A stretch of DNA of 64,000 bases from Barnesiella intestinihominis YIT 11860. GTDB taxonomy: Bacteria > Bacteroidota > Bacteroidia > Bacteroidales > Barnesiellaceae. Where the stretch lies: the NCBI RefSeq assembly GCF_000296465.1, contig NZ_JH815205.1, positions 325,109 to 389,108 of the forward strand. Reading direction: 5' to 3'. Made by a program: the position numbers and the translations under genes. How positions within the stretch are numbered: the first letter of the stretch is position 1; every line of letters begins with the position of its first letter. A model generated the notes under the pieces. That model worked only from the letters and a program-made list of their open reading frames with translations. It did not search any database and was not told where the DNA came from. Shown in pieces: positions 46,771 through 54,193 of this stretch.

Positions 46771-46810
46771 AAGGGGCTATGTCGCAGTCATTAATACGAC
46801 ATAGCCCCTT
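46771..46810 (+). terminator. Hairpin after the 46209 gene
   Basis: A perfect 14-bp stem (AAGGGGCTATGTCG, 46771-46784, with 46797-46810) and 12-base loop, 22 bases after the stop. It lacks a T-run on the plus strand. Confidence 0.55.
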
Positions 46811-47067
46811 ATACATAATGCTAAAAAATACACCCATATCGGGACTCGGCAAAAATTTAGTGGGAATTGTCTTTTAACTCTTGCATTCGCAGGTAAGGAG
46901 GGAAAAGAATAAATACATATAATCAAAGAGAAATGAAAGGATAATATTTCTACAAAATACGAATGTATTTAATTGTATATCTGCTTATTATATAAACCAG
47001 TTCATTTTCTTATACATTCTTGTAAAAGTCCATTTATACCCTTATTTGAATTATTTTTGTTACTTGT

Positions 47068-47102
47068 TTTGATACTTATATCAAAGCTATTTTCTATCTT
47101 TG
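47068..47102 (+). promoter_or_regulatory. Promoter with operator-like inverted repeat before the first recombinase
   Basis: TATCTTTG (47095-47102) is an exact -7 element, with TTTG at 47068-47071 (23-base spacer, long). TTTGATA (47068-47074) and TATCAAA (47079-47085) form an inverted repeat around CTTA that covers the -33 element and the spacer, a place where a repressor or the recombinase itself could block transcription. Confidence 0.5.
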
Positions 47103-47129
47103 CATCAGGATATAAATAACTGAAGCATA

Positions 47130-48263
47130 ATGGGTAGAAGAAAGCAGTCAAAAGTAGATAAAAGTCCGTTCAAGTTGCGTAGAAGAAAACTCTCGGACGG
47201 TCGTGAATCCCTTTTTATAGACCGTACTGTTGACGGCAAGCACGAATACGAGTTCCTTAAACTGTATCTTGTGCCGGAAACATCCGTCAAGGCGAAACGT
47301 GAGAACGCGAAGACACTCCGTCAGGCGGAGGAGATTATTCTCGCCAAGACCGAAGACATGGTTGATGACAAGGCGCGGGAGGAAGCGGCCAAAGACAAAT
47401 CCAAAATGCCGCTGTCCGATTTTATAGACTTGCTGATGGAGGAATACAAGCAACGGGGGCAGCCTTCATATCGGCATTTAAGGGCATCACGTACCAAGTT
47501 CGAGAAGTTCTATCCCGGTGCAAGGCTTTGTGACATGGACAAGAAATTCTGTACCGATTATGCCGAGTGGCTGAAATCCGAGCCTCTCACTCCGCAGGGA
47601 AAGCCGCTTGCCCAAGCCACAGCCTGTTCCTGTTTCTGGATTCTCGGCATCATCCTGTCTGCGGCATGGCAGAGAGGATATATAAAGAACAATCCCTGGA
47701 AGTTGTTGAGTTTCCAAGAAAAGATAGCGAGACCGGAGAGCAAACGTGAGTTTCTGACCCTTGATGAAGTCCGCAAGCTGGAGAATACCCCTTATGTAAA
47801 GGAGAATATACGCATGGCATTCCTGTTTGCCTGCTATTGCGGGTTGCGTGTAGGTGACGTTACGAATTTGTGCTGGAAAGACATATCGGTCAACGGCGGA
47901 CGGCACTTTGTATCGGTAGTAATGCAAAAAAACTCCAAACCCATATCGCTTCCGCTTCCTGCCAAAGCATTGTCGTGGCTTCCTGAGCGCAGAGAACCGG
48001 AGTCTTCCGTATTCTCGCTTCCGTCACATAGCGTCCTACGGAAGCATTTACAGAAATGGGCGGAACAGGCCGGACTGGGCAAACATCTTCATTTCCACCT
48101 GAGCCGCCATACCTATGGCACGATGCTGATAACCGCAGGGGTTGACCTTTATACCGCAAGCAAGATGATGGGACATGCCGATGTACGTCCCACACAAATC
48201 TACGCCAAAATCATAGACAAGAAAAAAGAGGAAGCGGTTTCATTGATAGATAAAGCATTTTAG
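47130..48263 (+). CDS. Tyrosine recombinase/integrase, first of a tandem pair
   Basis: 377 residues: an N-terminal arm-binding region, a SAM-like core-binding domain (about 105-195) and a C-terminal catalytic domain. Catalytic residues: Arg in CGLRVGDVTNLCWKDI, His-x-x-Arg in HLSRHTYGTML, His in MGHADVRPTQIYAKI and the nucleophile Tyr in the same stretch. The second recombinase begins 3 bases after its stop. Arginine is coded mostly by AGA, CGT and CGC, while the host genes around use CGA often, which fits transfer. Likely integrates and excises the element. Confidence 0.93.
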   Translation: MGRRKQSKVDKSPFKLRRRKLSDGRESLFIDRTVDGKHEYEFLKLYLVPETSVKAKRENAKTLRQAEEIILAKTEDMVDDKAREEAAKDKSKMPLSDFIDLLMEEYKQRGQPSYRHLRASRTKFEKFYPGARLCDMDKKFCTDYAEWLKSEPLTPQGKPLAQATACSCFWILGIILSAAWQRGYIKNNPWKLLSFQEKIARPESKREFLTLDEVRKLENTPYVKENIRMAFLFACYCGLRVGDVTNLCWKDISVNGGRHFVSVVMQKNSKPISLPLPAKALSWLPERREPESSVFSLPSHSVLRKHLQKWAEQAGLGKHLHFHLSRHTYGTMLITAGVDLYTASKMMGHADVRPTQIYAKIIDKKKEEAVSLIDKAF

Positions 48264-48265
48264 AT

Positions 48266-49432
48266 ATGACAGCAAACAAGAAATCAAGCAAACTGAAAGA
48301 GCCTGTAAGAGTGCGCACCAAGAAACTTGCTGACGGCTCTGAATCGTACTACCTTGACATCTATGTCAACGGCAAACGGAGTTATGAGTTTCTGAAAATG
48401 TACCACTTGCCGGAAGTAAACGCAAGGGTCAGGGAGCAGAACCGCGCCACCCGTGAAGCAGTCGAGGCCATCAAGTCTCAACGTATCATCGAGATTACAA
48501 ACTCCAAAGCCGGAATCAAGAGCAAATCAGCGTGGCAGAAACTCACGCTGGCGGACTGGCTGGAAAAATTCTATGCCATTCAGGAGCGCAAAGGAATCAA
48601 GCGTGTCGAGAAACTGGGAAGCATCATAAAAATCATCAACCAATATGGCAAAAGCACAAGGATGGGTGACATTGACAAGAAATGGGTACTCGGCTTCATT
48701 GACTGGATCCAGCACACTTATACAGGCAGGCATGGTAAACCACTTGAACAGGGAACTGTCGTGTCTTACATTTCCCAACTCTCCATAGCCCTGAACGCCG
48801 CAGTCAGGGCAGAGTGGCTGGACGAGAATCCGTTCATGTTGTTGTCCGCTTCGGAGCGGGTCAAGAAGCCGGAGTCGAAACGCCAGTTCCTTACCATTGA
48901 GGAAGTGAAACTTCTTATCGCTACGGAATGCCGCAACAAGACTGTCAAGCAAGCCTACCTGTTCTCATGCTACTGCGGGCTGCGCCTGAGCGACATGGAA
49001 ACTCTTTGCTGGAAAGATATTATTTGCAATGACGGCAGGTATATGATTGCCACCGTGCAGCAGAAGACATCTACGCCCATTTATACGCCGCTCTCGCAAA
49101 ATGCCGTCAAGTGGCTGCCTGAACGAAAGCCTGATAATAATGATGAAACACTTGTGTTTGCAGAACTGCCATCACGACCCACAACCAACAAGATACTCAA
49201 ACAATGGGTGGAAAAGGCGGGCATTGACAAGAAAATCACCTACCACACAAGCCGTCATACCTTCGGAACGATGATGATGACCGTTGGAGCCGACCTTTAT
49301 ACCACCTGCAAGCTGATGGGTCATGCCGATGTGCGCACAACGCAGATTTACGCCAAAATTGTCGACAGCAAGAAGATTGAAGCGGTGGATATGGTGGACA
49401 GGATGTTTGAGCGGGAAGAAGCCACAGATTAG
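48266..49432 (+). CDS. Tyrosine recombinase/integrase, second of a tandem pair
   Basis: 388 residues with the same plan as the preceding gene: Arg in CGLRLSDMETLCWKDI, His-x-x-Arg in HTSRHTFGTMM, and MGHADVRTTQIYAKI with the nucleophile Tyr. The first 60 residues also match the first recombinase in pattern (RVRTKKLADGSESYYLDIYV against the equivalent segment), so the pair arose by duplication, but they have diverged well beyond a recent copy. Two tandem recombinases often act together on one element. Confidence 0.93.
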   Translation: MTANKKSSKLKEPVRVRTKKLADGSESYYLDIYVNGKRSYEFLKMYHLPEVNARVREQNRATREAVEAIKSQRIIEITNSKAGIKSKSAWQKLTLADWLEKFYAIQERKGIKRVEKLGSIIKIINQYGKSTRMGDIDKKWVLGFIDWIQHTYTGRHGKPLEQGTVVSYISQLSIALNAAVRAEWLDENPFMLLSASERVKKPESKRQFLTIEEVKLLIATECRNKTVKQAYLFSCYCGLRLSDMETLCWKDIICNDGRYMIATVQQKTSTPIYTPLSQNAVKWLPERKPDNNDETLVFAELPSRPTTNKILKQWVEKAGIDKKITYHTSRHTFGTMMMTVGADLYTTCKLMGHADVRTTQIYAKIVDSKKIEAVDMVDRMFEREEATD

Positions 49433-49461
49433 AACAAGAGAATCTTGGATTCATCTAAAAA

Positions 49462-49563
49462 TGAGATTGCTGTATTATTGTGTAATATAAATTTTGAGAT
49501 TTATGCGTTGCGTCTAAACAAATTGAGATTAGTGTTATTTTTAACTGAATATATTTTGAGATT
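49462..49563 (+). repeat. Four direct repeats of TGAGATTNNTG
   Basis: TGAGATT occurs at 49462, 49495, 49524 and 49557, each followed by two variable bases and TG. Start-to-start distances are 33, 29 and 33, close to three helical turns. The fourth copy lies on the -33 element of the promoter of the ATPase/DUF4143 gene. Confidence 0.75.
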
Positions 49564-49585
49564 CGTGCAGCGCATATTATCTTTG
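49555..49585 (+). promoter_or_regulatory. Consensus promoter of the ATPase/DUF4143 operon
   Basis: TTTG (49555-49558), 19 bases, TATCTTTG (49578-49585), an exact match to the Bacteroidales pattern, 20 bases before the start codon. The leader is therefore very short. Confidence 0.7.
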
Positions 49586-49605
49586 CCATCAATAAAAGTC
49601 AATCT

Positions 49606-50937
49606 ATGATATTCAAAAGGAAAATTTACGATGAACTTCTGCGATGGAAGCGGACAGATGAGGGCAGAACAGCCGTGCTGATACAGGGTGCAAGGCGTGT
49701 CGGGAAGTCCACCGTTGCTGAAGAATTTGCGACAAACGAATACGACACCCATATATTGGTGGATTTTGCCGCATGTTCCTCCGAAATCCGCGACTTGTTC
49801 AATGATGTATCTGACCTTAACCGTATTTTCATGCGGCTGCAACTGGAGTACGGTATAGAATTGAAAGAACGCAAGTCCGCCATAATCTTCGATGAAGTCC
49901 AACTTGCGCCTAAAGCAAGGCAGGCAATCAAATATCTTGTAAAAGACGGAAGATATGATTACATAGAAACAGGTTCGCTGATTTCAATCCGCAAGAACGT
50001 CAAGGATATTCTTATTCCAAGCGAGGAAGTCAAAGTCCATATGTTTCCGATGGACTATGAAGAGTTCAAGTGGGCGTTGGGAGATACCGCAACGATAAAG
50101 TTGCTCCAAAGTTGTTTCCACAACAGGACTTCTTTGGGTGATGCCACGAACCGTAAGTTGATGCGTGATTTCCGCTTGTATATGCTTATCGGCGGTATGC
50201 CGCAGGCTGTGGCCTCCTATCTTGACACCAACAATCTTGAAAAGGTAGACAGTGTGAAACGTTCCATCATAACATTGTATGAAGACGATTTCAATAAAAT
50301 TGATCCGACCGGCAATGCTTCCAAGATGTTCCATCAGATTCCGGCACAGCTGACAAGCAACGCCAACAGGTATCTGGCATGGAGCGCAACAGATGGCAAA
50401 CGTAATTCCGAACTGGCTGAAATCATTTCAGAAATCAAGGAATCAATGGTGGTCAACATGGCTTATCATGCCAATGATCCGGGTGCGGGGATGGCATTAC
50501 ATCAAGCTCCGGACAAATACAAGATGTTCGTTGGCGACACTGGTTTGTTCGTCACTCTTGCATTTTGGGATAAGAAGTTCACCGACAACACGATTTATCA
50601 TAAGCTTCTCAGTGACAAACTGAGCGCGGATTTAGGGTATGTCTATGAGAATGTCATCGCCCAGATGTTGAAAGCCACCGGACATGAGTTGTACTATTAC
50701 ACATTTCCCACAGAAAGCGGAAAGCATAACTACGAAGTGGATTTTCTGATAGCCGAAGTCGACAAGGTAAGTCCCATCGAGGTGAAATCATCCGGCTATA
50801 AGGCACATGCTTCCTTGGATGCCTTTTGCAGAAAATTCTCGGCACGGATAAAAAACAAATATCTGGTTTATACGAAAGATATGCGTAAGGAAGAAGACAT
50901 ACTGTATCTTCCGGCATATATGACAATGTTTCTATGA
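49606..50937 (+). CDS. ATPase with C-terminal DUF4143 (nuclease-fold) domain
   Basis: 443 residues. An AAA domain with P-loop QGARRVGKST (about residue 27) and Walker B AIIFDEVQLA comes first; a winged-helix region follows; the C-terminal DUF4143 domain contains EVDFLIAEVDKVSPIEVKSS, which has the spacing of the PD-(D/E)xK nuclease core. Family members are common in prokaryotic accessory DNA and their role is not settled. It has its own promoter and repeats, and its stop overlaps the next start by 4 bases, making it the lead gene of a three-gene unit. Confidence 0.85.
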   Translation: MIFKRKIYDELLRWKRTDEGRTAVLIQGARRVGKSTVAEEFATNEYDTHILVDFAACSSEIRDLFNDVSDLNRIFMRLQLEYGIELKERKSAIIFDEVQLAPKARQAIKYLVKDGRYDYIETGSLISIRKNVKDILIPSEEVKVHMFPMDYEEFKWALGDTATIKLLQSCFHNRTSLGDATNRKLMRDFRLYMLIGGMPQAVASYLDTNNLEKVDSVKRSIITLYEDDFNKIDPTGNASKMFHQIPAQLTSNANRYLAWSATDGKRNSELAEIISEIKESMVVNMAYHANDPGAGMALHQAPDKYKMFVGDTGLFVTLAFWDKKFTDNTIYHKLLSDKLSADLGYVYENVIAQMLKATGHELYYYTFPTESGKHNYEVDFLIAEVDKVSPIEVKSSGYKAHASLDAFCRKFSARIKNKYLVYTKDMRKEEDILYLPAYMTMFL

Positions 50938-51566
50938 TTATGAGTGGTACGCTATCAAATATTTCACAACGGTTGCACGAAGTGAACATGCTTCTCTCCA
51001 CTTGCGAGCAAGGTTCACTTTCTTTTGGCCAAGCCCTATTGTTATCCCTGTTTTACCGGGACTTCAGCGAGACGAACACGGTTGTAGAAGAAGCGGAATC
51101 ATTGGCGGAAAAGGACGCGGATCAGCTTCTGAAATTTTCATCCTCCCTTTTTTCGGAGAGTGGAACATACCTGTCCCTTGACAGGAAGCCATTGCAGGCT
51201 GTGGACTTTGAAACCCTTTTTGAAGAATACCTGAAACCGTTTGAACTCCGCTATGAGGAAGCGAAAGCCGCCGCCACTGAACTCTGGCGCAAATATTCGG
51301 CACTGAGCAACCGTCTGGATTTCCTGCCGTTGGATTCGGAGGAATACATGAAGCTGTCCGATGAATGCGATGCCAAGAAAGCGGAGTACGACACGGCTCA
51401 CGCACAAACCGACCATTTATATAACGAGTGGCAGCAGGAGCGCGACAGGTATTTCTGCGTATATTGTTTCAAGCCGATGTTTCTTGACGTGCTGGTGGAA
51501 CGCCTGCATGGTATCGCCGGAAGCATCCTGTCTGACATCAACCGGATGAAGGAGGGCAAGCCATGA
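50934..51566 (+). CDS. Unknown protein, second gene of the ATPase unit
   Basis: 210 residues, no signal or membrane segment. Mostly helical, with a long charged helix about residues 95-165 (FELRYEEAKAAATELWRKYS and on). A pair of cysteines sits in RYFCVYCFKPMF. The ATG overlaps the ATPase stop (ATGA); an ATG two codons on (50940) is an alternative. Its end overlaps the following gene in the same way. I recognise no family. Confidence 0.7.
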   Translation: MIMSGTLSNISQRLHEVNMLLSTCEQGSLSFGQALLLSLFYRDFSETNTVVEEAESLAEKDADQLLKFSSSLFSESGTYLSLDRKPLQAVDFETLFEEYLKPFELRYEEAKAAATELWRKYSALSNRLDFLPLDSEEYMKLSDECDAKKAEYDTAHAQTDHLYNEWQQERDRYFCVYCFKPMFLDVLVERLHGIAGSILSDINRMKEGKP

Positions 51567-51976
51567 GCCGTGCAAGTCTGTTGCAGGAAACGGCCTTATG
51601 GATGGACACCGTTAACCTTGCCCTGTGCCTGTTCATCTACGAAGTATGCAATGACTGCCAATTTGAGTTTGCATCGGGAAGCGACTTCGTTAATTTCATG
51701 AACCTGAAGCCGACCTCACGCCCCGTTACCGTCCGTCCGAAAGAAAACCTGCGTGTCTGCTACATGGTGTTCTCCGTGTCACAGGCCATCAGGCCGCGTG
51801 AACGCGGCAGACTTTGGGCGGAAGGGTTCCTGAAGCATTGCGGCATATCCAAGTCCTACTATGACAAACACCGCAGCGATGTCTGCGGCAAAGGGGCGAC
51901 AGAAGAGAACCGGAATTTCCGTAAAGCCATCGACAAGGCCATCGAAAATGCAAGACGGCTGAATAACACCCCATAG
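51563..51976 (+). CDS. Unknown protein, third gene of the ATPase unit
   Basis: 137 residues, basic C-terminus. LALCLFIYEVCNDCQFEFAS and the following segment recall, weakly, the C-terminal part of RteC-like regulators of Bacteroides conjugative elements; I do not assert that relation. Its start overlaps the upstream stop by 4 bases and it is followed by a terminator at 52023. Confidence 0.65.
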   Translation: MSRASLLQETALWMDTVNLALCLFIYEVCNDCQFEFASGSDFVNFMNLKPTSRPVTVRPKENLRVCYMVFSVSQAIRPRERGRLWAEGFLKHCGISKSYYDKHRSDVCGKGATEENRNFRKAIDKAIENARRLNNTP

Positions 51977-52022
51977 CTGCCCGCCGTTTCCCCATTCGAC
52001 AAAATATATTTTCATTATACCC

Positions 52023-52068
52023 ATGCGCTATACCGCTCACACACAACGGTATGGCGCATTTCCTTTTT
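52023..52068 (+). terminator. Intrinsic terminator of the ATPase unit
   Basis: ATGCGCTATACCG (52023-52035) pairs with CGGTATGGCGCAT (52047-52059), 12 of 13 positions plus one mismatch or wobble, followed by TTCCTTTTT. Confidence 0.75.
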
Positions 52069-52092
52069 GTACACTTTCCCCATTTGTTCCCC

Positions 52093-52123
52093 ATTGGGCC
52101 ACTTCGGGTCAAACTTAACTTTG
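52093..52123 (+). promoter_or_regulatory. Promoter of the excisionase-like gene
   Basis: ATTG (52093-52096), 19 bases, TAACTTTG (52116-52123); one base off in the -33 element. It leaves a leader of about 75 bases. Confidence 0.6.
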
Positions 52124-52204
52124 CATCGGAAACAGAAGAAAACTATAGGCTGACAAACAGCAGGTTCCGGTTTCCCAATGGTACAAGTAACAATTATAAA
52201 ACGA

Positions 52205-52453
52205 ATGAATATGGAAAGTGAACGCAATTTAATGACCACCACCGAAGCAGCCCGGTACCTCGGACTGAAACCCAGTTATCTCTACAAGATGATGATGCGC
52301 CGTGCAATCCCTTACTATAAGCCGGGAGGAAAACTTTGCTTCTTCGCCAAGGAAGACCTTGACGCTTGGATGAAACGGGTACGGGTGAAGTCGCAGGAGG
52401 AAATCGACAGCGAGGCTGCACGCTATCTGGCTGCTCATGAGAAAAACAAATGA
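52205..52453 (+). CDS. Helix-turn-helix (HTH_17, excisionase-type) DNA-binding protein
   Basis: 82 residues from ATG 52205. MTTTEAARYLGLKPSYLYKM is the winged-helix MerR/Xis-like recognition motif, and AIPYYKPGGKLCFFAKEDLDAWM is the wing. Such small proteins bend DNA to help a recombinase excise an element, or act as local regulators. The open frame reaches back to 52178 but MNMESERN is a more natural start. The next gene's frame overlaps its end by 17 bases but probably begins 29 bases further on. Confidence 0.85.
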   Translation: MNMESERNLMTTTEAARYLGLKPSYLYKMMMRRAIPYYKPGGKLCFFAKEDLDAWMKRVRVKSQEEIDSEAARYLAAHEKNK

Positions 52454-52481
52454 TTTACCAATCTTTTATAAAACAACCGTT

Positions 52482-52955
52482 ATGGACAATTTTAAAAACA
52501 TGGAGCCGGGTATCAAGGATACTGCGGCTTTTGATTCCGCGAACAAGGAATCCAAGAAGAAGGAAAGCAGACCCGTTATCAGCGCAAAGGCACAGACCAT
52601 CTTGGAGTTCTTGCGCAACTGCACCCCTTATGAAGCCGATTCCATCCGTGGAATGGTTGGCTACGGCACGGGAAAAGGTGACATCGGCACGATTGAAGCA
52701 ACCGATATGCTGGCAGTCAACCGTTTCCTCAATCACGGGCTTACCAAAGAAAATGGTACGAGCAGCGAGGCTGTCATGAAACACCGTCAAGAACGTGCCC
52801 AAAAGTTGATGGAGGCGGTCAAGGGATTTGTGGATATAAGCCAGCTTTGCCGCATCAGTGTCGCGCTGATGAAAATCTCTTCCGACTTCAAGGCTGTGGA
52901 GGATGCGCGAGGGCACCTGCAATCGCAATCCGTCGCTAATGTAAACCGAAACTGA
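52482..52955 (+). CDS. Unknown mobile-element protein
   Basis: 157 residues from ATG 52482; an ATG at 52437 would add 15. The N-terminal 35 residues are polar and disordered; KAQTILEFLRNCTPYEADSI to FLNHGLTKENG is a helical domain, ending in a helix with LCRISVALMKISSDFKAVED. It follows the excisionase-like gene and is cotranscribed with it. Such a partner is usual next to Xis in Bacteroides elements, but I know no function. Confidence 0.65.
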   Translation: MDNFKNMEPGIKDTAAFDSANKESKKKESRPVISAKAQTILEFLRNCTPYEADSIRGMVGYGTGKGDIGTIEATDMLAVNRFLNHGLTKENGTSSEAVMKHRQERAQKLMEAVKGFVDISQLCRISVALMKISSDFKAVEDARGHLQSQSVANVNRN

Positions 52956-52964
52956 TGTCAAACT

Positions 52965-53059
52965 GGAACGGGATATCGGATAACACAGGAACGGACAAGT
53001 TAAACTTTCACGCATGGGATGTCTGGAAACGGCCATAGGACTTTCCGATATTCCGTTCC
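52965..53059 (+). repeat. 16-bp inverted repeat spanning the gap before the 53078 gene
   Basis: GGAACGGGATATCGGA (52965-52980) pairs with TCCGATATTCCGTTCC (53044-53059) over 16 positions with one G-U, around a 63-base loop. GGAACGG is repeated directly inside the loop. The structure fills nearly the whole 122-base gap, ending 18 bases before the next start. Confidence 0.7.
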
Positions 53060-53077
53060 CATAACTTTTATCAAACG

Positions 53078-53572
53078 ATGCAAGAAAATACAAAGGACAA
53101 GGAAAAATACAATTTCTTGCGCCCGACAGGGATTGAAACATTTGCGTTCATATTCTCCGCAGGTGCATTGCAATGGCTGCACGGAACAACAACCGATGAT
53201 GACGGCAGGGAAATCGGCAACTTCACTTTGTTTGGCGACCTCTTGGCAAGGATGGCTCTTGCGGACGGCACGTCCAAAGGTTTCCACCGACCGCTTATGC
53301 TTTCAGTCGGTCAGGCGCAGTATTCCGAAGAACAGCTTTCAACCCATTGGAACATGGGCAGGAAGCACATACGCCGCCTGTTGGACGGACTTGAAAGGCT
53401 GGAACTCATAGACACCTGCCGTTCAAGGGTAGCGTCAGTTATGACATTTCCATGCCTGTTGCAATGGATGGCAAAGGATGGCAGCGTGGTTTCCAACCCA
53501 TTCATCCACAAACAAAGGGAAAAGAATATTCGTAGTGACATTTTAATCCTCCTCCCTTCCCGTGTCCCATAG
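53078..53572 (+). CDS. Unknown mobile-element protein
   Basis: 164 residues. No signal or membrane segment. FTLFGDLLARMALADGTSKG and QYSEEQLSTHWNMGRKHIRRL then LDGLERLELID look like a winged helix-turn-helix region, so DNA binding is possible. The last 20 residues (from HKQREKNIRSD) may reflect a decayed or truncated end. No other gene follows on the element. Confidence 0.6.
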   Translation: MQENTKDKEKYNFLRPTGIETFAFIFSAGALQWLHGTTTDDDGREIGNFTLFGDLLARMALADGTSKGFHRPLMLSVGQAQYSEEQLSTHWNMGRKHIRRLLDGLERLELIDTCRSRVASVMTFPCLLQWMAKDGSVVSNPFIHKQREKNIRSDILILLPSRVP

Positions 53573-53941
53573 CATTACGGGGTGTTTCAATTCTCACTAT
53601 CGGAGATATTTTAAAACTCCTCCTCTGTGTTTTGCACAGCAAAATATAGGGGAGGTGTCCGCAAGGACGGAGGGGTTAACCCTTACAATCAAAAATCCTA
53701 TCCTATCTTTTCAACCCCTCTCCTCAAAAACTACCGTTTCGTCGGTATCTCACTTATTACTAACGCAACACAAGGGAGAAACAGAAATATAATCCATCGC
53801 ATTCGTTAAAATTCAAATTTATCCCCCACGAATTTTCTACTGAACCGTACCCCACACGTTACAGGGTCATCTCTCCCTCATATAAAAAACTGTGCCCCGA
53901 TTTGACAACCGGGGCACAAACATATAATTGAAAAAAATCAA
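53573..53941. other. 369-base gap at the right edge of the accessory region
   Basis: No protein gene is supported. The stretch 53600-53720 is structured: GTCC-GCAA-GGAC is a hairpin with a GCAA tetraloop (53657-53668), and GAGGGGTT (53670-53677) is matched by AACCCCTC (53713-53720). The host sequence resumes with the rpmE terminator at 53885. The right end of the mobile element should lie between. Confidence 0.55.
53885..53918 (-). terminator. Intrinsic terminator of rpmE
   Basis: TGTGCCCCG (53891-53899) pairs with CGGGGCACA (53910-53918). On the minus strand the stem is followed by GTTTTTTATA. It starts 23 bases after the rpmE stop. Confidence 0.85.
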
Positions 53942-54193
53942 TTACTTCTTACGATTACCATAACGGCTCATGAACTTATCTACACGACCGGCCGTATCCA
54001 CCAATTTCTGTTTACCGGTGAAGAACGGGTGTGAAGAACTGGTAATTTCAAGTTTTACCAAAGGATAAGTAACACCATCAATTTCGATAGTCTCTTTGGC
54101 TGCTACGGTTGAACGAGTGATAAAGATTTCTTCGTTCGACATGTCTTTGAAAACTACGGGACGGTAGTTATCAGGATGGATTCCTTTTTTCAT
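53942..54193 (-). CDS. rpmE2: Ribosomal protein bL31, type B
   Basis: 83 residues, a protein of the large ribosomal subunit that bridges to the small subunit. [20 protein letters not shown] and [23 protein letters not shown] are the family core. It lacks the Cys pairs of the zinc-binding type, so it is the zinc-independent form. Monocistronic, with the terminator at 53885 and a -7-like TACATTTG on the minus strand at 54268-54261, 68 bases upstream. Confidence 0.96.

Follow-up and report, generated by a model that had tools for sequence, protein, structure and literature searches.

In a 64,000-nt stretch of the Barnesiella intestinihominis YIT 11860 genome (contig NZ_JH815205.1, positions 325,109 to 389,108; this whole stretch is called the window and its own numbering is used below), three overlapping genes lie between a pair of integrase genes and an excisionase-like gene, which raises the question of whether they work together and what they are for. 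The initial annotation described an ATPase with a nuclease-like fold followed by two unrelated proteins, joined by ATGA overlaps and sharing one promoter and one terminator, and proposed a single unit for element-borne defence, maintenance or regulation. The arrangement it described was confirmed by our inspection of the sequence. Three ORFs are present on the + strand at 49606-50937 (443 aa), 50934-51566 (210 aa, orf2) and 51563-51976 (137 aa, orf3), and both junctions (50934-50937 and 51563-51566) overlap as ATGA. A presumed promoter at 49554-49585 was read by eye as TTTTGAGATT (49554-49563) and TATCTTTG (49578-49585), the latter of the Bacteroidota -7 type with consensus TAnnTTTG. A presumed intrinsic terminator at 52023-52069 (+), also read by eye, consists of ATGCGCTATACCG, an 11-nt loop, CGGTATGGCGCAT and then TTCCTTTTTG; it was not listed by a pattern search limited to loops of 3-8 nt. 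The interpretation as one unit was only partly supported: the ATPase, its nuclease-like domain, its location in a mobile element and its membership of a defence-candidate family hold, whereas the grouping of the three genes into one system is not supported.

The surrounding element appears to be bounded by 13-bp direct repeats, AGGGAAAAGAATA, at 46899-46911 (presumed att site) and 53516-53528, which the initial annotation had not noticed. Among related loci collected from public genomes, phages, plasmids and viral contigs (designated L followed by a number), the locus L003 carries a 99.6% identical element that diverges at the left repeat. Two tyrosine recombinase genes, intA (47130-48263, +; Pfam Phage_integrase, 1.7e-24) and intB (48266-49432, +), precede the three genes. 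Downstream lie an xis-like HTH_17/excise-family gene (52178-52453, +), a backbone gene encoding a 172-aa protein of unknown function conserved in related elements (52437-52955, +) and a backbone gene with a weak DnaD-like match (53078-53572, +) whose 3' end runs over the right end of the element. Integrase, xis-like gene and element ends are thus present as in an integrative mobilizable element. On its right side, the L003 element continues into NikA-like (48.7 against a cut-off of 27 bits) and relaxase (26.3 against 24.6 bits) genes, for which no match was found anywhere in the 64-kb window, so that the window copy seems to have been cut short inside the 164-aa gene.

The first gene product exceeds the curated cut-offs for both AAA_14 (77.3 versus 27 bits) and DUF4143 (47.5 versus 28.1 bits), domains of the COG1373 family, and matches a PADLOC model of the candidate defence family PDC-S01 over residues 3-443 (PDLC04792, E 2.1e-96). 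The Walker A/B and PD-(D/E)XK residues (E377, D379, E392 and K394 for the latter) are invariant in 10 aligned sequences. An AF2 model (mean pLDDT 80) shows an AAA+ core, a winged-helix-like region, poorly modelled at residues 252-266, and a C-terminal nuclease domain. The best VIA matches of this model are the archaeal STAND-like ATPases (Z 16.1, rmsd 4.7, 266 residues aligned to 2qen over model residues 1-320; Z 15.2, rmsd 4.9, 266 aligned), followed by CED-4 and plant resistosomes (Z of about 14-15 for CED-4 and NLRs), RdrA and Avs5, whereas the top two rows of Foldseek are Orc1/Cdc6 bound to DNA. These results identify the protein as a STAND-like NTPase with an NBD-helical-winged-helix core, residues 252-266 being of low confidence. 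A sequence search of solved structures with the ATPase returned a single chance row (E 0.2). In comparison with STAND NTPases such as SSO1545, PABY2304, CED-4, plant NLRs and Avs, the protein has no long sensor region, is compact with a C-terminal nuclease domain and has a repeat array upstream of its gene.

To explore whether the three genes belong together, the region between the last integrase and orf2 was compared in 32 loci; L062 was set aside as decayed, leaving 31 with a readable slot, window included. The backbone of these loci is int(-int), slot, orf2, orf3, an xis-like gene and further genes. A DUF4143 ATPase fills the slot in 11 loci, a DUF1016 nuclease (PDC-S02 type) in 11, a PDC-S27-type ATPase in 5, a DUF3307 pair in 1, a HEPN-like protein in 1 and nothing in 2 (L066 and the truncated L018). 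In this tally L059 shows only the last 50 residues of the slot gene, L018 is a truncated relative with a 55-residue match, and near-identical elements (window/L003, L069-L072, L011/L013) were each counted. PDC-S27 and PDC-S02 were scored with PADLOC for L004, L006 and L055 only, the other loci being assigned by similarity to L006 and L055, and L065 also by Pfam. L006 is named by PDC-S27, its DUF234 match being below cut-off (0.036); the HEPN label rests on a match below cut-off (E 0.0077), and in the pair called SatD-like only the DUF3307 domain of the neighbour was confirmed. Pairs of loci with similar flanks and different cargo place the borders of the slot: L006 and L007 (flanks 88.0% and 85.3% identical), L002 and L011 (89.9% over a 158-nt left piece and 94.2% over 4.8 kb on the right) and, in a second element family, L055 and L058 (93.7% and 92.0%), the last cut at the int stop codon and at the start of a fused orf2/orf3 gene. 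The left border is the 3' end of intB and the right border lies within about the first 8-11 codons of orf2; in the first family about the first 8 codons go with the cargo, so that the cargo brings its own junction with orf2. A fixed place with changing defence-like genes is also a feature of the defence hotspots of phages and satellites, but here the slot lies inside the int-xis region and its cargo overlaps or abuts a backbone gene.

The orf2 and orf3 products match no family above cut-off; no Pfam hit was obtained at E≤1 except DUF4407 at 0.064. Distant relatives are single proteins of 339-351 aa that hold both halves, indicating that orf2 and orf3 are the N- and C-terminal halves of a split backbone protein of about 345 aa. 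With the fused family as query, 10 of 393 Bacteroidales genomes match at E≤1e-40 and 17 at 1e-3, including the split pairs of the window's genome and of one other genome (G683). An xis-like gene follows in 25 of the 29 loci with at least 600 nt of downstream sequence and was not found in L007, L008, L018 and L062. The initial annotation had set as a refuting condition that these two proteins prove to be ordinary transfer or RteC-type regulators found mostly without the ATPase, and this condition is largely fulfilled as to occurrence, orf2 and orf3 standing beside other cargo or none in 20 of the 31 loci. By sequence, however, they are not RteC: the RteC domain (PF09357) was not found, and hhalign against 7 RteC proteins gave probabilities of 0.1 and 0.8, orf3 in particular being rejected as RteC by the absence of a Pfam hit and a probability of 0.1. 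RteC of CTnDOT, likewise an element-borne protein, controls excision and transfer genes (PMC1976400); RteC-family genes stand before HTH_17 genes in L026 and L028, and the window's genome has a true RteC elsewhere; orf2 and orf3 only occupy a comparable place before an xis-like gene. The fused relative of L031 was modelled (pLDDT 83, pTM 0.51) as an all-helical protein, for which the best Foldseek E was 0.038 and the best VIA Z 10.9 (rmsd 6.5, 153 aligned), both helical bundles from which no inference was drawn. We take the pair as element regulators or excision factors by position only.

The ATPase was also found outside this context. Close matches (E≤1e-60) were present in 14 of 247 Bacteroidales genomes, the window's own included, and the 22 matched places other than the window (40-65% identity) show no convincing orf2 or orf3 in the flanks compared, of about 1.5 kb or less; a weak orf2 match on a minus-strand frame of L082 was judged to be chance. 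DUF4143 domains occur in 55 of 60 genomes at E≤0.001 (49 over the family cut-off), with up to 29 per genome.

An unexpected feature, also not noticed in the initial annotation, lies upstream of the ATPase gene. Its leader (49456-49571, +) holds four direct repeats with core TGAGATT at 49462, 49495, 49524 and 49557, hence spaced by 33, 29 and 33 nt, the last copy lying on the -33 region of the presumed promoter. The exact pattern TTTGAGATTNRTG, the only form tried, occurs twice in the 3.44-Mb genome, both times in this leader. Taken alone, the window's array is within chance (10% of shuffles reach its score, as for L007, against 47% for L008), and it rests on the family and on the spacing shared with L002 and, where legible, L007 and L008. 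In the family, the best self-match lag among lags 12-60 was 32-34 in 26 of 28 ATPase genes with starts set by alignment. With crude ORF starts, 20 of 28 reach a score of 10 at that lag, against 5 of 301 control ORFs, of which one is antisense to an ATPase leader and one is itself a distant DUF4143 gene, and 3 of 85 in a second, partly overlapping control set. Wider samples gave 9 of 27 (three near-identical genes, L110-L112, counted among the 9), 26 of 43, and 10 of 13 plasmid-borne homologues, hand-picked for variety from 59 records and coming from Bacteroidota, Bacillota, Actinomycetota, Pseudomonadota, Fusobacteriota and Chlamydiota, down to 25% identity; the best lag was 33 or 34 in 6 of 6 viral contigs, two of them alike and one at score 9.5. 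In a set of 95 genes, from which three duplicates had been removed, the array was found for 47 of 53 proteins of 425 aa or more, 7 of 12 of 400-424 aa, 1 of 14 of 379-399 aa and 7 of 16 shorter ones; the slot homologues L008 and L061 are among the six long proteins without an array at the threshold. Start codons are estimates in these analyses, and the list of spacings is partly by construction, as arrays were chosen by a first lag of 31-34. Upstream of slot genes of other kinds (4 PDC-S27-type, 7 PDC-S02-type, 1 HEPN-like and 1 SatD-like) no 32-34 period was detected, the SatD-like gene having a 28-nt period (score 16.5).

The samples of 27 and 43 genes had left out 3 of 30 and 17 of 60 genes, respectively, through a narrow Walker A pattern. 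None of 4 of these assayed with crude starts has a lag of 32-34, and with a wider motif 17 of the 20 could be analyzed (all but L096, L181 and L185): none has the 33-nt period, and the 15 whose Walker A ends in CGKT have a best lag of 23 (14 at score 10 or more; L156 at 7.5). Of 125 DUF4143 genes in total, 69 have a period of 31-34, 14 a period of 23, 12 another best lag and 30 none, so that 42 have neither period. By Walker A type, 14 of 15 CGKT genes have the 23-nt period, and 65 of 87 GAR-type and 4 of 21 GPRQ-type genes that of 31-34. On a FastTree tree the three states require 18 changes against 34-44 in 200 shuffles, and among the 83 genes with an array the two periods require a single change. 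The step is thus a heritable property that goes with the protein; 23 and 33 nt differ by about one helical turn (10.5 bp per turn).

The TAnnTTTG box was found within 90 nt of the start in 53 of 62 repeat-positive genes, where 4.4 were expected: 1-23 nt after the last matched copy in 30, at its end in 2, 14-68 nt before that end in 16 and 36-89 nt beyond in 5, so that simple blocking at -33 does not fit all cases. In the 23-nt class 12 of 15 show the box. The repeat sequence differs from locus to locus and tends to follow the protein (1 of 1000 label permutations reaches the observed value), but the correlation is weak overall (Spearman 0.12) and clear only at 50-70% protein identity, where repeat cores resemble each other (6.3-6.6 against 4.2-4.4 shuffled); below 50% they barely do.

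The simplest account of these results, to which we give a probability of about 0.6, is that a captured, self-regulating ATPase-nuclease gene has been placed in a cargo slot of a small mobilizable element. The sequence itself establishes the slot between the last integrase and orf2/orf3 and its refilling with unrelated genes while the flanks stay similar, the correspondence of orf2/orf3 to the halves of one larger backbone protein in front of an xis-like gene, the nuclease motif, and the four phased repeats that the ATPase gene brings with its presumed promoter, with their place at that promoter and, across the family, their period by subfamily. Everything beyond this, namely binding, repression, trigger, cleavage and defence, is inferred: the ATPase would bind its own repeats side by side, cover the promoter and keep its amount low, until a phage or a competing element upsets this balance, the protein changes state or is released, and its PD-(D/E)XK domain cuts nucleic acid. 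Since orf2 starts inside the last codons of the cargo gene, the backbone genes are, in this view, probably read from the cargo promoter, so that the cargo could also set their level. Proteins with related folds bind DNA: the STAND-type regulator IniR has an SSO1545-like AAA+ domain and binds a promoter (PMC5760070), although it activates another operon and has a separate C-terminal DNA-binding domain, no nuclease domain being described, and the NLR Rx1 binds and bends DNA. The defence role remains circumstantial, as PDC families were named by association. In the literature searched on this family (DUF4143, AAA_14, COG1373, PF13635, PF13173), on PADLOC PDC-S01, PDC-S27 and PDC-S02, on repeats and operators and on SSO1545, PABY2304 and COG1672, in which most subscription papers were not represented, no phased repeat array or slot exchange was described for PDC-S01.

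Among the alternatives, the best surviving, though unlikely, is that the array is read by another factor, such as a host nucleoid protein or repressor, or serves as a recombination site for cargo exchange. The presumed promoter sits inside or beside the array and a host protein could repress foreign genes, but the locus-specific sequence, the period that follows the ATPase subfamily, the presence of the array at solo ATPases outside such elements and the lack of the 32-34 period at the 13 other slot genes argue against it. The single three-gene system of the initial annotation is still less likely: the genes overlap and the 10 slot homologues of at least 75% identity (window, L002, L003, L007, L008, L012 and L069-L072) lie next to orf2, but against this stand the 20 of 31 loci without the ATPase, the 22 homologues without detected orf2/orf3 in their flanks, and an N-terminal half of orf2 that, past its first codons, is near-identical in L002 and L011, which carry different cargo. 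An initiator with its iterons, opening DNA for replication or excision of the element, is suggested by the Orc1/Cdc6 rows but is very doubtful, as related elements lack the ATPase yet keep their backbone and 22 homologues stand outside such elements as far as their short, unannotated flanks show. Equally doubtful is a repeat RNA that neutralises the nuclease as in type III toxin-antitoxin systems, despite a layout resembling that of ToxIN with repeats directly upstream of a nuclease gene, since in 30 of 53 genes the presumed -7 box lies 1-23 nt after the matched copies, so that most of the array would not be transcribed, the protein is an AAA_14-DUF4143, predicted STAND-like ATPase with a PD-(D/E)XK motif and not a ToxN-like toxin, and an Rfam search of 46800-54000 gave two matches, both below their gathering scores.

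A more far-reaching and unlikely possibility is that DUF4143 ATPases and their private arrays form a two-part, protein-plus-DNA immune device. The STAND-like NTPase would be parked as an ordered oligomer on its own phased sites, with a step of 23 or about 33 nt (roughly two or three helical turns) set by its subfamily, and foreign DNA or a phage protein that unseats it would both switch on the gene and free an active nuclease. The array would then be the sensor of one of the most common defence-candidate families.

PDC-S01, described as an ATPase fused to PD-(D/E)XK, is reported as the fourth most common defence across prokaryotes, with roughly 39,000 PDC-S01 genes and with experimental validation pending for most PDC candidates (PMC12988326). 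The slot explains why such genes look like fixed operons in mobile elements when they are exchangeable cargo. For a very common and mechanistically open family, an upstream array with a step that goes with the protein subfamily and a sequence that partly follows the protein gives a ready DNA ligand, a reporter and a mutational test for the many members that have it, as well as a genomic rule for pairing proteins with sites.

The right end of the element, which appears to be bounded by direct repeats at 46899-46911 and 53516-53528 of the window, lies inside the 164-aa gene, where the sister element in locus L003 has the similar internal sequence GGGAAAGGATA. This copy may have excised or integrated at an internal pseudo-site and lost its mobilization genes. 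In a related locus, L058, the slot of an element otherwise like that of L055 was occupied by a 141-aa HEPN-like protein with RNRIIHS (L058:5527-5952, in the reverse-complemented locus).

In L128, a very long 33-nt array (score 130.5) was found in front of a 413-aa DUF4143 ATPase. An RteC gene stands beside a distant DUF4143 ATPase (376 aa) that also has a 33-nt repeat, in the window's genome at C3:76071-77706 and in two congeners (loci L022, L023, L024 and L027). In four other loci (L106, L117, L204 and L208), the repeat units are themselves palindromes, as in the case of TTTTTGCGATTGTAATCGCAAAAA in L117, suggesting that some subfamilies may bind as dimers per unit. Furthermore, the slot of L009 with the DUF3307 pair (L009:6384-7990) has its own upstream repeats, with a 28-nt period (score 16.5), so that phased leader repeats may not be limited to DUF4143 genes.
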